From NCBI GenBank assembly GCA_910575165.1, contig CAJTDS010000002.1, forward strand, positions 1 through 64,000: a stretch of DNA of 64,000 bases, written 5' to 3'. This DNA is from Eggerthellaceae bacterium (lineage in GTDB: Bacteria > Actinomycetota > Coriobacteriia > Coriobacteriales > Eggerthellaceae). Every line of letters begins with the position of its first letter. The stretch's first letter is position 1. This document shows positions 9,623 to 43,924 of the stretch, in pieces. Made by a program: the position numbers and the translations under genes. Under the pieces are notes generated by a model that was given only the letters and a program-made list of their open reading frames with translations, did no database searches and was not told the origin of the DNA.

Positions 9623-9639
9623 CTATGCGGCCGCTTGGA

Positions 9640-9699
9640 ATCGTGCATGCCGGGCAGGTTCACGCACTTTTTCGCTTGAACCAGCCCGGTATGCACGAT
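9640..9699. repeat. Large 23-bp stem hairpin
   Basis: Positions 9640-9662 pair with 9677-9699 (21 of 23 Watson-Crick pairs, one G-U) around a 14-base loop containing acttttt. It lies in the 437-bp gap between the zinc-ribbon gene and the amidinotransferase gene; the gap has no convincing gene. It may act as a bidirectional terminator or be a mobile palindromic unit. Confidence 0.65.
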
Positions 9700-9961
9700 T
9701 TGCTTTTCAGCGGCGCAGCGTGGTGCGGTGCGGTGGCGCTGCTCGGTGCGCTGGAGTGGCGCAGTCTGGTGCGGCAGCGTGGGCTGGCGCGGCTCTTCGG
9801 CGGGCGCGAGCTGTTTCTTCACGCTGATTCGGCGCAGGGGGGTTTCGGCTGCGCGGGGTTGCTGTATTATTGTGCAAGCGCCATAACCCGTGCCGGTGGG
9901 CTATCTGCGGGCGCGGGCGTTTCGATAGGCAGCGTCGGGCTGCCGGTGGAAAGGAGATAGC

Positions 9962-11110
9962 ATGGCGAAGATCGTTAACTCATGGAACGACTGGGATCCG
10001 CTGAAGCGCGTTATCGTCGGCCGTTGCGACAACTCGGTGATTCCTCCCGAGGAGCCCGCGACCTCCGAGAAGGTGCCGATCGACTCCGAGATGCGCGGCA
10101 TGTGGGGCCTGCGTCCCCTCAACACCGTGGAGCGCGGCAACGAATGCCTGGAGAACCTGGTGCGCGAGCTGGAGGACCGCGACATCATCGTCGACCGTCC
10201 CACGCCGCTGCAGTGGAACCAGGCCATCGGCACGCCGGACTTCCGCAACGACTCCATGATGACCTGCATGCCTCCGCGCGACATCCTGCTGACCGTGGGC
10301 CCCGAGATCATGGCCGCCGCCAACTCCTTCCGCTGCCGCTACTTCGAGTACCTGGCCTACTGGCCGCTCATGATGGAGTACTTCGAGGAGGACCCGGAGT
10401 TCCTGTGGACCCAGGCGCCTCGTCCCCGTCTGACGGACAAGTCCTACAAGCACAACTACTACGACGAGAAGATCACCCTGGAAGAGCGCCTGGTGCGTAC
10501 GGCCAACAAGGACTTCGTGACCACCGAGGTGGAGCCCATGTGGGACGCCGCCGACGTCATGCGTATGGGCAAGGACTTCTTCATCCAGCATGGTCTCACC
10601 ACCAACCGCACGGCTATGGACTGGTTCCAGCGCTACTATCCCGACATCCGCATCCATGCGATGAACTTCCCGGGCGACCCGTACCCCATCCATATCGACG
10701 CCACCTTCGTGCCGCTGCGTCCGGGTCTGATCATCAACAACCCGCATCGTCATCCGGCCGAGGGTCAGCTGGACATCTTCACCGCTAACGACTGGCAGGT
10801 AGTCGACGCCGCTCAGCCCGCCCATGACGAGCCGCCGGCGCTGTGCTACTCCAGCGTGTGGCTGTCCATGAACTGCCTGGTCCTGGATCCGAAGACCGTC
10901 ATCGTCGAGGCCTCCGAGGTGTACCAGCAGCAGCAGATGGACGAGCTGGGCATGAACGTCATTCCGGTCGACCTGCGCGACGCCTATCCCTTCGGCGGCG
11001 GCTTGCACTGCTCCACCGCCGACGTGTACCGCGAAGGCGACTGCCTGGACTACTTCCCCAACCGCGTTCCGGACTGCACCCTGGTGCGTCCCGAGATGTG
11101 GGAGGACTAG
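9962..11110 (+). CDS. Glycine amidinotransferase-like enzyme
   Basis: A 382-residue member of the amidinotransferase (GATM/StrB1) family, which moves the amidino group of arginine to an amine acceptor and releases ornithine. The guanidino-modifying fold residues are present: DAADVMRMGKD (about 195-205, matching the AGAT aspartate region), HIDATFV with the catalytic His at 244, and GGGLHCSTAD with the nucleophilic Cys at 350. The His-Cys spacing of 106 is close to that of human AGAT. The acceptor cannot be told; glycine (giving guanidinoacetate), inosamines and lysine are known for the family. AAAGGAG precedes the ATG. A strong terminator follows, so it is probably monocistronic. The next gene is a solute symporter that could carry substrate or product. 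Confidence 0.88.
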   Translation: MAKIVNSWNDWDPLKRVIVGRCDNSVIPPEEPATSEKVPIDSEMRGMWGLRPLNTVERGNECLENLVRELEDRDIIVDRPTPLQWNQAIGTPDFRNDSMMTCMPPRDILLTVGPEIMAAANSFRCRYFEYLAYWPLMMEYFEEDPEFLWTQAPRPRLTDKSYKHNYYDEKITLEERLVRTANKDFVTTEVEPMWDAADVMRMGKDFFIQHGLTTNRTAMDWFQRYYPDIRIHAMNFPGDPYPIHIDATFVPLRPGLIINNPHRHPAEGQLDIFTANDWQVVDAAQPAHDEPPALCYSSVWLSMNCLVLDPKTVIVEASEVYQQQQMDELGMNVIPVDLRDAYPFGGGLHCSTADVYREGDCLDYFPNRVPDCTLVRPEMWED

Positions 11111-11144: not shown

Positions 11145-11176
11145 AAGGGAGCTGCCTGCGGGCGGCTCCCTTTTTT
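11145..11176 (+). terminator. Strong terminator after the amidinotransferase gene
   Basis: A 12-bp stem (aagggagctgcc / ggcggctccctt, one G-U) with a tgcg loop runs into six T residues. Confidence 0.9.
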
Positions 11177-11289: not shown

Positions 11290-11476
11290 TATAGTGAAGA
11301 AGCTCCGCACGCTTCCGACGCCGAGGGGAGCGGCATCGTGCGCAGGAATTGCGGCCTTCGGGCGTAGCGCAATTCCTTGACGGGAAACCCGGACCGCAGC
11401 GCACGATGCGCATTGGAGCCAAGGTGACGGCCGATTCGGCATTTCGGGGCAGCCGCGACCCATGTAGGGGAGTTGT
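11290..11476 (+). promoter_or_regulatory. Promoter and structured leader RNA of the MHS symporter gene
   Basis: TATAGT at 11290-11295 predicts a start near 11302 and a leader of about 175 nt. The leader folds into a three-way junction. P1 is 11 perfect pairs (11333-11343 with 11399-11409). P2 is 10 perfect pairs (11344-11353 with 11368-11377), capped by gcc-ttcg-ggc with a gtag bulge. P4 is cggg-aaa-cccg (11381-11391). The arrangement resembles a riboswitch aptamer, but I do not recognise a known class. The ribosome site GGGGAG lies downstream. Confidence 0.6.
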
Positions 11477-12832
11477 ATGAGTACGAGCGAGTCAAGCGCA
11501 TCCACCACCTCGACCTTCGATCTGTGCAGCGAGGAGGAGAAGCACCGTATTCTGAAGAAGGTGACGTTCTCGTCGTTTCTGGGGAACTTCATCGAATGGT
11601 TTGATTACGCCAGCTATTCGTATCTGGCCACCGTCATCGCGCTGGTGTTCTTTCCGGACACCGATCGCACCGTGGCCGTGATGTCCACCTTCGCGGTGTT
11701 CGCGCTGTCGTTTCTGGTGCGTCCTATCGGCGCCATCTTCTGGGGCAACATGGGCGATAAGAAGGGCCGCAAGTGGGCGCTGTCCATTTCTATCCTGCTC
11801 ATGAGCGGCGCGACGTTCCTTATCGGCTGCCTGCCGGGCTACGCTGTGCTGGGCATCGGCGCGCCGCTTCTGCTGCTGTTGCTGCGCATGGTGCAGAGCT
11901 TCTCGGCGGCGGGCGAGTACGCGGGCGCTGCCACCTTCATCGCCGAGTACGCGCCGAAGAACCATCGCGGCTTCTACTGCTCCATGGTGCCGGCTTCCAC
12001 GGCCGCCGGCCTGCTGGTGGGTTCGCTTCTGGCCACGTTCATGTTCAACGTGTGGGGCGCCGATTCGGCCTTCGTGGTCGATTGGGGCTGGCGCATTCCC
12101 TTCCTGTTGGCGCTGCCGCTGGGCTACATCACCCACTACATCCGCACGCACCTGGAGGATTCGCCGGTCTACGAGCAGATGCAGAACCGCCTGAAGGCCG
12201 CCGGCCGCGAGGTGGAGCATCCCATCCGCACCCTGTTCAAGAAGCATTTCCGCGTGCTCATCATTTCGTTCGGCGCCTGCGTGCTGAACGCCGTGGGCTT
12301 CTACGCGGTGCTCACCTTCCTGCCGAACTACCTTGAGACCACGCTGAACTACCCGGCCGGCGACGCCTCCACCATCACCACCATCGTGCTGGTGGTCTAC
12401 ATCGCCTTCATCTTCCTGTCGGGCCGTATCTCCGACCGCTTCGGGCGCAAGAAGATGCTCATCGGCGCCTGCGTGGGCTTCATCGTGTTCACCATCCCGG
12501 CGTTTGTGCTGCTGGGCACTATGAACTTCTGGGTTATCCTGCTGGTGGAGCTGGTCATGTGCCTGATCCTCACCATCAACGACGGCACGCTGGCAAGCTA
12601 TCTGACCGAGACGTTCCCCACCGACGTGCGCTACTCCGGCTTCGCGCTGTCGTTCAACCTGGCCAACGCCATCTTCGGCGGCTCGGCGTCGTTCATCTCG
12701 CTGTGGCTGATCGACATCACCGGCAACGACATCGCGCCGGCCTTCTACATGGTGGTCATCGCGGCGGTCGCGCTGGTGGCCATGATCGCCTCGCACGAGC
12801 ATTCCAACAAGGACCTGGCCGACGTGAAGTAG
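11477..12832 (+). CDS. MHS-family proton symporter (MFS)
   Basis: A 451-residue transporter of the metabolite:H+ symporter branch of the major facilitator superfamily (ProP, KgtP, ShiA relatives). It has the N-terminal FLGNFIEWFDYASY signature (about residues 35-48), the loop GNMGDKKGRKWAL between helices 2 and 3, its repeat GRISDRFGRKKML in the second half (about 314), and 12 predicted membrane spans. Known substrates include organic acids, betaines and amino-acid derivatives; which one applies is not visible. Position after an amidinotransferase suggests a guanidino compound or ornithine-like solute. Translation starts at ATG 11477 after GGGGAG, behind a highly structured leader. Confidence 0.9.
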   Translation: MSTSESSASTTSTFDLCSEEEKHRILKKVTFSSFLGNFIEWFDYASYSYLATVIALVFFPDTDRTVAVMSTFAVFALSFLVRPIGAIFWGNMGDKKGRKWALSISILLMSGATFLIGCLPGYAVLGIGAPLLLLLLRMVQSFSAAGEYAGAATFIAEYAPKNHRGFYCSMVPASTAAGLLVGSLLATFMFNVWGADSAFVVDWGWRIPFLLALPLGYITHYIRTHLEDSPVYEQMQNRLKAAGREVEHPIRTLFKKHFRVLIISFGACVLNAVGFYAVLTFLPNYLETTLNYPAGDASTITTIVLVVYIAFIFLSGRISDRFGRKKMLIGACVGFIVFTIPAFVLLGTMNFWVILLVELVMCLILTINDGTLASYLTETFPTDVRYSGFALSFNLANAIFGGSASFISLWLIDITGNDIAPAFYMVVIAAVALVAMIASHEHSNKDLADVK

Positions 12833-12891: not shown

Positions 12892-12908
12892 CGAAGGGGG
12901 AGTTGGGT

Positions 12909-13514
12909 ATGACAGAGGCGGCATTGAATCCGAAGACGCCGAAAGCCCAGGCCACGCGCGCGTCGCTGGTGATGGCAGCTGCCGAGCTCTTGCGTGAGGA
13001 GGGTCCTGCGGCCGTGACGTACCGCGGCGTTTCCAAGCGCGCCGGAGCCGCTTCTTCCTCGGTTGGCTACTACTTCGATTCGGTGAACCAGCTGTTGGGG
13101 GAGGCGGGCCGTTTCAACATCCAGCTGTGGAGCGAGCGTGCCGAGCTGGTGGCTGCCCAGGCCCAGGAGCTGGACGAAGGCGAATGCCGCGAGCGGGCGA
13201 CCATGCTGCTGATTGCTGCATGCCTGCCGAACGACGAGGCCATGCTGCCCGCCCACTACGCCCAGCTCATTGCCGCGTCGGACGCGCCTGCGGTGACCGA
13301 CGCCTACCAGACCGGCCATGGCGAGCTCCACGATGCCGTGGCAGCCATCCTGAAGCGGGCGGGCCTTGCGGGCTTTCCGCCGTCGCTGGTGAGCATGCTG
13401 GTGGACGGTGCGGCCGTGGCGGCGCTTTCCGAAGGTCGCAACGTGCACGAAACCGCCGAAGCGGTGCTGGGTCAGGCTATCGATTTGTACGAGAGGTCGC
13501 AGGCGCGCGCGTAG
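12909..13514 (+). CDS. TetR-family transcriptional regulator
   Basis: A 201-residue repressor-type protein. The N-terminal helix-turn-helix (residues about 12-60: ATRASLVMAAAELLREEG, TYRGVSKRAGAASSSVGYYF) is typical of TetR; the rest is an all-helical ligand domain without recognisable specificity. ATG 12909 follows GGGGGAG; a TTG two codons earlier is less likely. It lies downstream of the symporter beyond a terminator and upstream of an ABC exporter; either could be its target. Genes like this next to drug-type ABC exporters often control them. Confidence 0.88.
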   Translation: MTEAALNPKTPKAQATRASLVMAAAELLREEGPAAVTYRGVSKRAGAASSSVGYYFDSVNQLLGEAGRFNIQLWSERAELVAAQAQELDEGECRERATMLLIAACLPNDEAMLPAHYAQLIAASDAPAVTDAYQTGHGELHDAVAAILKRAGLAGFPPSLVSMLVDGAAVAALSEGRNVHETAEAVLGQAIDLYERSQARA

Positions 13515-41485: not shown

Positions 41486-41588
41486 ATCCTTTCCGCGGTT
41501 TCCTGGCTTGATTTTCGATTCAGCCCGCATAATCGTCAGCTTCGTCACGATTTCTTGATGAAGCTGACGATTATGTACGATTTCGACT
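41486..41588. repeat. 103-bp hairpin repeat, left copy
   Basis: 99 of 103 bases are identical to 43712-43814 in direct orientation. Inside, cataatcgtcagcttcgtca pairs with its inverse around an 8-base loop (20-bp stem, one G-U). With the right copy it brackets the membrane-protein gene. The flanking 41380-41485 and 41589-41709 hold no gene. Confidence 0.9.
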
Positions 41589-41709
41589 CTGGACGGAGTT
41601 GTTCACGAGGTGCATGGGCTGTAGACTGCTGCCATAGGTTGTCCGTTATGTGGGGTGACGTGGCAAACGAGCATGGTGTCGTATGTGCTCGAAAGAAGGG
41701 GGTGCACCG

Positions 41710-43566
41710 ATGGCCGATGCGATGGCTTCAAGTGTCTGCGATAGCGGCGTGGGTCAGTCTTGTAAGATGATGGGCGTAATGCCTGATCGCAGATGGTTGC
41801 TTTCCTATCTGGTGAAAGCCACAATACTGATGGGGTTTCTCTATCTGACGAGCCTGGTACTTCCCTGTGCTCCTCCGATTGCGGCTGCGGCGATTCTCGC
41901 GATACTCAGTATAATCGGAGCCACAAGCGCCGTCTACGGCTGGGTTATGCGTAAAACTCTTAAGCAATCGGAGTACGCGAAGGAAGGGAATCTGGCAAAG
42001 CTCAACGAGGGACGTGTTATTTGCTTCGCGGTGTGCTTTGTGGTTTCTGCAGCATCAATGGTGGGGCTTGCGTTGGAATCGCCGAAATGGTCGATGCTCG
42101 ATTGGACTATCGTGGTGCTTGCGATTCCGTTGTACGGTTTGGTCTGGATACTTGTCAGGATGAGGCTTCGCCGGGAATACGCCCCGCTGTTCCTGCCGGC
42201 TGGAGTGTTAAAAGTCGCTCCGCTAATTGTCGCTGTATTGCTATTTGTCGCTTTCGGACTAGCAAGCGTTCTCACTCCTCCGATTAGCTATGAAAGTGCG
42301 CAAGAAGCGTTTCTGGCGGTGAATCGTGCATATAGCCAATCGCCATCGACGCTGCTCGAAGAGGTTGAATACCTAGGGTCGTTGAAAGATGGACTCGTTG
42401 GTTATGGTTTGTCTGAATTTGGCCGGGCAGCATCACCGTTTTACCTGGTATTTCATATAGCTCTGTACGGTTTCATCTTCTTTGGCGTGGCTAATATGCT
42501 CGGGGTGTGTGCGTTGGACACTCGTGAATTGCGGCGTGTCTTCGAGCCGCTGCAGCGCATAGCTGATCAAGCCACCCAGACGCGTCCCATTGTGCGCTTC
42601 GCCGTCCTTGCTGCAGCGATGCCGCTCTGCTTCATGGGGTTGTTCGTCGTTGTGGATAAGCAGGTGTCGCGTGCGATTGAATCGGGCGAGCTCACTCCTA
42701 TACAGCAGTTCGTGCGGGACCAGATGGCTCTTTCGGTTTTCGTGCTTGACGGGGAGTATTACGAATACCAAGCCGTCCAAGAGCTGGTAGACCAAACGAT
42801 AGATGATGCGGAAGCCCTGAGGCGCGAGGCGCGAGAGACCTTGGTACCGCTAATAAATGCATCCTTCGACATGCGCATTGCCAATGTGGATTCGTATCTT
42901 GATTGGTATTACAGCCTACCTGCCGATTACGAGCGATTAGGCAGCATCGTCACAGGGGCTGCAGAGAGCTATCTTGAGGAGCAGCTGACGGCTCGCATCG
43001 AGGAGGGTGTTGACGACTCCGAGCTCTTCGCGCAGCTATCGCATTTTACTGACGAAGCCGACTCGTTGCGAAGGTCGTTCTCTGAGGGCATGGCGAATAG
43101 CCGGTTCGAGGGACTTCCTTCATGGCTTTTTAAAAGCGTTACCGTTCTTAGCGATTCCGTTATCGGGCAATCGCTGGCACCGACTCAATCACTTATGACC
43201 GCGAGTGAGCGATTCGCCGTCAGCGGCACGGCGGGCGTGGGGGCTGGCCTTATTGCGAAGAAAGTAGCGCAGAGAGCGGTCGGTAAGAAGTTTTTTCAAG
43301 AACTGGTAACCAGAGTAGGTAAGGTTATAGGTGGGAGGGCTATAGGGTCAGCGGCGGGTGGCGCTCTGGGCTCTATCGGGGGGCCTGCGGGGGCGGCTTT
43401 GGGTCTAGCTGTGGGCGCGGGTGTAGGTGTCGGCGTGGATGCGCTGCTGCTCAATATCGACGAACTTCATAACCGGGATGCCTACAGAGCCGAGCTGGTA
43501 GATGCTATCGAGCAGGAGAGAGCTGAAATGCTTGCGTTGTTCGAGGAATCAGCCGAGGCTGAGTAG
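41710..43566 (+). CDS. Membrane protein with glycine-zipper tail, between direct repeats
   Basis: A 618-residue protein of a family I do not recognise. Four N-terminal spans occur in pairs (about residues 30-75 and 100-135), with further spans near 165-185 and 250-270 and another around 305-325. A long helical outer or inner domain rich in acidic residues follows (about 335-480). Near the end a Gly/Ala-rich stretch with GxxxG repeats (GGRAIGSAAGGALGSIGG, about 545-590) could insert in a membrane. ATG 41710 has AAGGGGG upstream; ATG 41683 does not. Codon choice is less GC-biased than the neighbours. The flanking 103-bp repeats suggest it moved or was inserted as a unit. Confidence 0.75.
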   Translation: MADAMASSVCDSGVGQSCKMMGVMPDRRWLLSYLVKATILMGFLYLTSLVLPCAPPIAAAAILAILSIIGATSAVYGWVMRKTLKQSEYAKEGNLAKLNEGRVICFAVCFVVSAASMVGLALESPKWSMLDWTIVVLAIPLYGLVWILVRMRLRREYAPLFLPAGVLKVAPLIVAVLLFVAFGLASVLTPPISYESAQEAFLAVNRAYSQSPSTLLEEVEYLGSLKDGLVGYGLSEFGRAASPFYLVFHIALYGFIFFGVANMLGVCALDTRELRRVFEPLQRIADQATQTRPIVRFAVLAAAMPLCFMGLFVVVDKQVSRAIESGELTPIQQFVRDQMALSVFVLDGEYYEYQAVQELVDQTIDDAEALRREARETLVPLINASFDMRIANVDSYLDWYYSLPADYERLGSIVTGAAESYLEEQLTARIEEGVDDSELFAQLSHFTDEADSLRRSFSEGMANSRFEGLPSWLFKSVTVLSDSVIGQSLAPTQSLMTASERFAVSGTAGVGAGLIAKKVAQRAVGKKFFQELVTRVGKVIGGRAIGSAAGGALGSIGGPAGAALGLAVGAGVGVGVDALLLNIDELHNRDAYRAELVDAIEQERAEMLALFEESAEAE

Positions 43567-43711: not shown

Positions 43712-43814
43712 ATCCTTTCCGTGGTTTCCTGGCTTGATTTTCGATTCAGCCCGCATAATCGTCAGCTTCGTCACGATTTCTTGATGAAGCTGACGATTAT
43801 GCGGGATTTCGACT
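43712..43814. repeat. 103-bp hairpin repeat, right copy
   Basis: Direct repeat of 41486-41588. Here the stem is longer: four extra outer pairs (cccg/cggg) give 24 pairs in all, one of them G-U. The remaining gap 43567-43924 has no gene. Confidence 0.9.
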
Positions 43815-43924
43815 CCCGCAGAGATGTTCGGCTCTAGGGCTAGAGATGCCCTGGAGAGCGGTCGGGTCGTTGCAGTTTGCTGTTTCGCAGGCGAAGGCCG
43901 GCGGCGGCTTTCGTCCGTCCTGCA

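Follow-up and report, generated by a model that had tools for sequence, protein, structure and literature searches.

An MHS-type symporter gene in the 64,000-nucleotide stretch of Eggerthellaceae DNA analysed here (the window) is preceded by a leader that is predicted to fold into a three-way junction, with the start codons of two upstream ORFs on opposite strands of its closing stem. We favour the view, to which we assign a probability of about 0.4, that this is a lineage-specific translational-control leader, probably coupled to its leader ORFs rather than acting as an aptamer. Since the leaders of orthologous symporters are often control regions, cis-regulation of the window's symporter is plausible.

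The symporter leader and its predicted fold

The MFE fold of the leader contains exactly the three helices, within about 80 nt, that an earlier note had named from the sequence, and the coordinates of the junction are confirmed (Table 1). The closing stem (GCATCGTGCGC, 11333-11343, paired with GCGCACGATGC, 11399-11409) has 11 bp and the first arm (AGGAATTGCG, 11344-11353, paired with CGCAATTCCT, 11368-11377) has 10 bp, both of them perfect. The first arm is extended by a GCC-UUCG-GGC helix with a 4-nt GUAG bulge, and the second arm is the hairpin CGGG-AAA-CCCG at 11381-11391 (strands 11381-11384 and 11388-11391). These helices are simple perfect stems that leave few residues unpaired.

The earlier note had considered such an arrangement unlikely by chance. 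The junction core, a post hoc choice for this comparison, has an energy of -42.2 kcal/mol against a mean of -27.8 kcal/mol for dinucleotide shuffles (z -4.5; equalled by 1 of 2000 shuffles), whereas the full 175-nt leader reaches a z of only -1.6 to -1.9. A z beyond that of the core was found for 16 of the 3197 plus-strand stretches sampled within the window, and of 93 other orthologous leaders that were folded, 4 formed some unrelated three-way junction of comparable size. Judged by these folding energies, the junction is a real structure that stands above chance, and it is not extraordinary for a GC-rich genome.

The placement of the junction between a promoter and a ribosome site was borne out as regards a Shine-Dalgarno sequence and a -10-like box (Table 1), but a two-box sigma-70 match was lacking in the promoter scan. 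The terminator scan found no terminator after the junction, its sole hit being that of the amidinotransferase gene; control exerted by the junction would therefore be translational. A hairpin predicted to form early in transcription is the MFE structure when the 5' transcript stops at 11347, 11377 or 11392, but not at 11362. This hairpin and the closing stem of the junction are predicted to exclude each other; the hairpin gives way to the junction once position 11407 has been reached, and in the full leader it is about 6.5 kcal/mol less stable (one of its six forced pairs being non-standard).

Both upstream ORFs are listed in Table 1. The first, which starts with GTG, has a Shine-Dalgarno sequence (AGGGGAG, 11324-11330) at a spacing of 7 nt, and in the predicted fold this sequence and the start codon are almost wholly paired. 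Its peptide starts with Met-Arg-Arg; an orthologous copy is absent, the peptide conserved in relatives is a different one, and frequent Arg codons are to be expected in GC-rich DNA. The second, of 24 codons, lacks a Shine-Dalgarno sequence of its own, its frame is open from 11349, and its TGA stop overlaps the ATG of the symporter gene as ATGA. The predicted closing stem covers the ATG of this ORF, not the symporter ribosome-binding site (RBS).

Table 1. Coordinates and basis of the features discussed; locus numbers are given for leaders in other genomes
Feature	Position or loci	Strand	Basis or remark
AGAT-like amidinotransferase gene	9962..11110	+	PDB matches: L-arginine:glycine amidinotransferase, E 8e-77
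Intrinsic terminator of amidinotransferase gene	11145..11172	+	Terminator scan
-10-like TATAGT of symporter leader	11290..11295	+	Sequence and inference; good -35 box absent
Early hairpin, CGCACG 11306-11311 / CGTGCG 11337-11342	11306..11342	+	Prediction only
Three-way junction	11333..11409	+	Predicted MFE fold; single-genome element
Short leader ORF, GTG start, MRRNCGLRA-stop	11338..11367	+	Sequence
Second upstream ORF, MRIGAKVTADSAFRGSRDPCRGVV-stop	11406..11480	+	Sequence; ATG in 3' strand of closing stem
Symporter Shine-Dalgarno, AGGGGAG	11466..11472	+	Sequence; partly paired in prediction
MHS-type (ProP-like) MFS symporter gene	11477..12832	+	Pfam MFS_1, 8.8e-47
TetR-family regulator	12903..13514	+	Pfam TetR_N
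Type U leaders (examples)	L041, L092, L114, L118, L132, L167 and others		FLGDYH ORF before symporter
Type C leaders (n=9)	L022, L068, L080, L082, L100, L104, L105, L165, L185		Before orthologous symporters
Type S leaders (n=5)	L151, L154, L156, L161, L166 (Slackia)		Before symporter

In searches for homologues the leader stood alone. It gave no match at the gathering score in Rfam 15, and the best sub-threshold matches are attributable to chance; the opinion of the earlier note that it matches no guanidine-I, -II or -III, glycine, SAM, TPP or cobalamin riboswitch agrees with the empty Rfam search of the window. BLASTN of the leader against its own genome and 99 relatives returned the self-match only. 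A covariance model of the junction, which is weak because it was built from one sequence and which a distant relative could escape, found no homologue beyond the window in 138 genomes of the Eggerthellaceae family; two further matches (E about 0.01 per genome), neither of them before this symporter, are at chance level. The same fold is absent from all other distinct leaders among about 100 orthologous ones, and among the loci compared only that of the window contains the arm pair. Nothing resembling conserved unpaired aptamer-like residues was found, and the closest orthologues have other elements in their leaders.

Leaders of the orthologous symporters

Homologues of the symporter are present in 63 of the 119 family genomes, about half, and the closest are 72-89% identical. 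About half of the orthologous symporter leaders carry an overlapping upstream ORF (type U) of 16-37 codons, which ends in ..LGD[YFSC]H plus a few residues and has its stop at +8 to +20 inside the symporter gene. In 30 of the 31 non-redundant leaders of this type a start could be assigned, nearly always with a Shine-Dalgarno-like site, and the symporter ATG often lacks a canonical one. Conservation is generally higher at the first two codon positions than at the third; the residues GD are invariant in 30 of the 31, and their codons vary at the third position only, with one exception. Two paralogue leaders (L109 and L111) have kept FLGDYHE without an overlapping symporter start, which suggests that the peptide itself is under selection. 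Furthermore, the LGDYH-ATG pattern has 44 matches in the 119 genomes, mostly at this symporter, against 4 for the reversed control. The FLGDYH ORF is a candidate nascent-peptide sensor or coupler. At another locus (L205), a permease gene is preceded by a similar ending, MLGDYHG, with its stop at +8.

The second upstream ORF of the window resembles the type U ORFs in that it precedes the same gene, occupies the same position and ends at the symporter start, and its 24 codons compare with their 16-37. It differs from them in its phase, with a stop at +4 rather than +8 to +20, and in lacking both LGD[YFS]H and a Shine-Dalgarno sequence. The window leader is thus outside type U, and the LGDYH pattern is absent from its own genome. 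In the window, the 34 nt that precede the symporter gene score 1.2, against a type U minimum of 8.2. A score as high as that of this tail was reached by 11 of 960 control RBS regions (68 of 960 for the upstream part alone), so that the tail is far nearer to type U than most RBS regions, as would be expected if it descended from such a leader; we regard this descent as weakly supported.

Two smaller groups of orthologues have structured leaders of unrelated kinds. In type C leaders the arms are conserved and form a long stem that is interrupted by single mismatches, likewise conserved (..CAGNYAGTCAGC../..GTAGAYTGGTTG..), and capped by a terminal loop whose length varies from 3 to more than 100 nt; both sides have changed in 5 of 20 pairs, and the covariation score was reached by 1 of 500 shuffles. 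Type S leaders form two hairpins and a third over the Shine-Dalgarno sequence, with compensatory changes in all three helices; both sides have changed in 10 of 28 pairs, and none of 500 shuffles scored as high. Covariation among so few related sequences is suggestive, not proof. Like the window leader, those of types C and S are structured and occur once per genome, always before the same symporter, but they differ from it in sequence and architecture. An Rfam search of 16 orthologous loci gave nothing, types C and S matching no family, and covariance models of type C (R1) and type S (R2) had no match in the window's own genome. Both types may be among published microbiome-wide candidate lists, e.g., PMC8040213. 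A likeness between the 5' hairpin of the window (CTTCC/GGGGAG) and a Gordonibacter/Eggerthella element (GGCGT..CCC/GGGGG..ACGCC) is suggestive by eye, but the alignment was poor and we do not claim it.

Possible modes of action of the window leader

In the reading that we favour, the junction would bury the start region of the 9-codon ORF in the 5' strand of its closing stem and the start of the 24-codon ORF in the 3' strand. Ribosomes at work or paused on the first ORF, which begins with Met-Arg-Arg, would open the closing stem, and the opened stem would free the second ORF, whose translation may then raise that of the symporter by coupling across the ATGA overlap. What we infer here is translation of either ORF in the window, a switch, a ligand and a direction of control; what we observe are the positions of the two ORFs, the predicted helices, the lack of a terminator and the overlapping, coding-conserved leader ORFs of orthologues. 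The arrangement would be reminiscent of leader-peptide attenuation by TnaC, SpeFL and ErmL, with which it shares a short ORF with a Shine-Dalgarno sequence in a structured leader, a nutrient gene downstream and start sites within helices that are, in our case, predicted to be mutually exclusive. Unlike those systems, the window leader has neither a conserved peptide nor a terminator; a conserved ending (FLGDYH) exists in its relatives only, where arrest is putative.

Several observations weigh against the favoured reading. The window ORFs have neither the FLGDYH ending nor the same phase, and the tail scores below every type U member. The second ORF would depend on initiation without a Shine-Dalgarno sequence, and the symporter has a decent one of its own that the modelled junction leaves uncovered. 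There is also no homologue for a comparison of conservation, the early hairpin is the less stable structure, and Arg codons are common.

For these data, a structured but non-switching 5' UTR is nearly as likely an explanation as a translational-control leader. The junction might stabilise the mRNA, insulate the RBS or be neutral, and such an undemanding role is compatible with a lineage-specific element; it would account for the 138 family genomes without a homologue, the modest z of the whole leader, the unrelated junctions in 4 of 93 leaders and the symporter's own downstream Shine-Dalgarno sequence. It fits less well with two perfect helices of 10-11 bp and a core z of -4.5, with the presence of both upstream ORFs' start codons in the closing stem, and with orthologous leaders that look selected as control regions. 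The possible unclassified riboswitch of the earlier note, for a guanidino or amino compound, we consider unlikely. A compact junction near an RBS, a transporter gene downstream and an AGAT-like gene upstream would suit it, as would the lack of an Rfam match, and in other genera the orthologous genes are preceded by unrelated structured leaders in which compensatory changes occur, as if the gene tended towards RNA control. However, neither BLASTN nor the covariance model found homologues, and there is no positive evidence: the genomes searched offer no homologous leader in which the conserved core and covarying helices by which riboswitches are recognised could show, few unpaired residues are available for a pocket, and there is no expression platform, given that a terminator is lacking and the symporter RBS is not clearly sequestered. 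The Rfam riboswitches (guanidine-I to -IV, glycine, SAM, TPP, cobalamin and others) are likewise 5' leader RNAs before transporter genes, but the window leader has no match to them at or near threshold.

It is very improbable that the repeats act as DNA, as operators bound by the TetR-family protein encoded downstream or by some other factor. Perfect inverted repeats do lie just 3' of the promoter, and a TetR gene follows the symporter here, as does a similar one, by ORF reading, in Slackia (loci L147 and L161). Yet no second exact copy of the half-site GGAATTGCG exists in the window, and hence none near the TetR gene; the 11-mer GCATCGTGCGC of the closing stem is found at other places in the genome as single sites only; and arm centres that lie 24 and 66 bp apart would be uncommon in a TetR operator. 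Least probable by far is a copy of a mobile palindromic repeat, an alternative that the earlier note had raised: a family of this kind does exist in the genome, where it occupies about 12 places, two within the window, but the leader is not among its matches and is single-copy by BLASTN, pattern and covariance model, and within the sensitivity of these copy searches we regard the idea as refuted. The two copies of this dispersed repeat in the window, near-perfect palindromes of about 50 bp at 41489-41604 and 43715-43840, flank an ORF at 41683-43566.

Likely substrate and biological meaning

The neighbour that the earlier note had called an amidinotransferase beside an MHS symporter is indeed AGAT-like (Table 1), and most symporter-bearing genomes also hold such a gene, often alongside the symporter. 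The symporter itself matches NCBIfam TIGR00883 at 1.4e-114, yet below the family cut-off. In Adlercreutzia, a paralogous symporter gene directly follows a creatininase gene that passes the NCBIfam creatininase cut-off and adjoins an EamA-type permease gene; in other genera an EamA gene lies between the AGAT and symporter genes. At two Adlercreutzia loci (L199 and L202) the creatininase gene has an end that reads GDFHEN and runs into the start of the paralogous symporter gene, and this junction sequence is of the same kind as that of the leader ORFs. In mice, colonisation by E. lenta has also been shown to lower creatine in the colon (PMC11149096). Because of this finding, the AGAT-like neighbour and the creatininase gene by the paralogue, we infer creatine, creatinine or guanidinoacetate as the best guesses for the substrate. 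Upstream of the amidinotransferase gene, at 9638-9702, the window contains a long near-perfect hairpin with a z of about -8.

By itself, the junction is a single-genome curiosity, and the comparative picture of the leaders is more useful. One transporter family of common gut bacteria has a codon-conserved leader peptide in many genera and two unrelated covarying RNAs outside Rfam in others, and from the variety of these leaders the symporter seems to have been repeatedly controlled through its leader. It is conceivable, although we think it quite improbable, that a symporter for a guanidino compound (creatine-like) has acquired different leader sensors by lineage in the Eggerthellaceae, namely the junction, the type C stem, the type S double hairpin and the FLGDYH peptide. 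If all four kinds of leader answered the same metabolite, they would constitute several independent unclassified sensors for one ligand. The symporter leaders are ready test objects for the sensing of creatine or arginine-derived compounds by gut Coriobacteriia.
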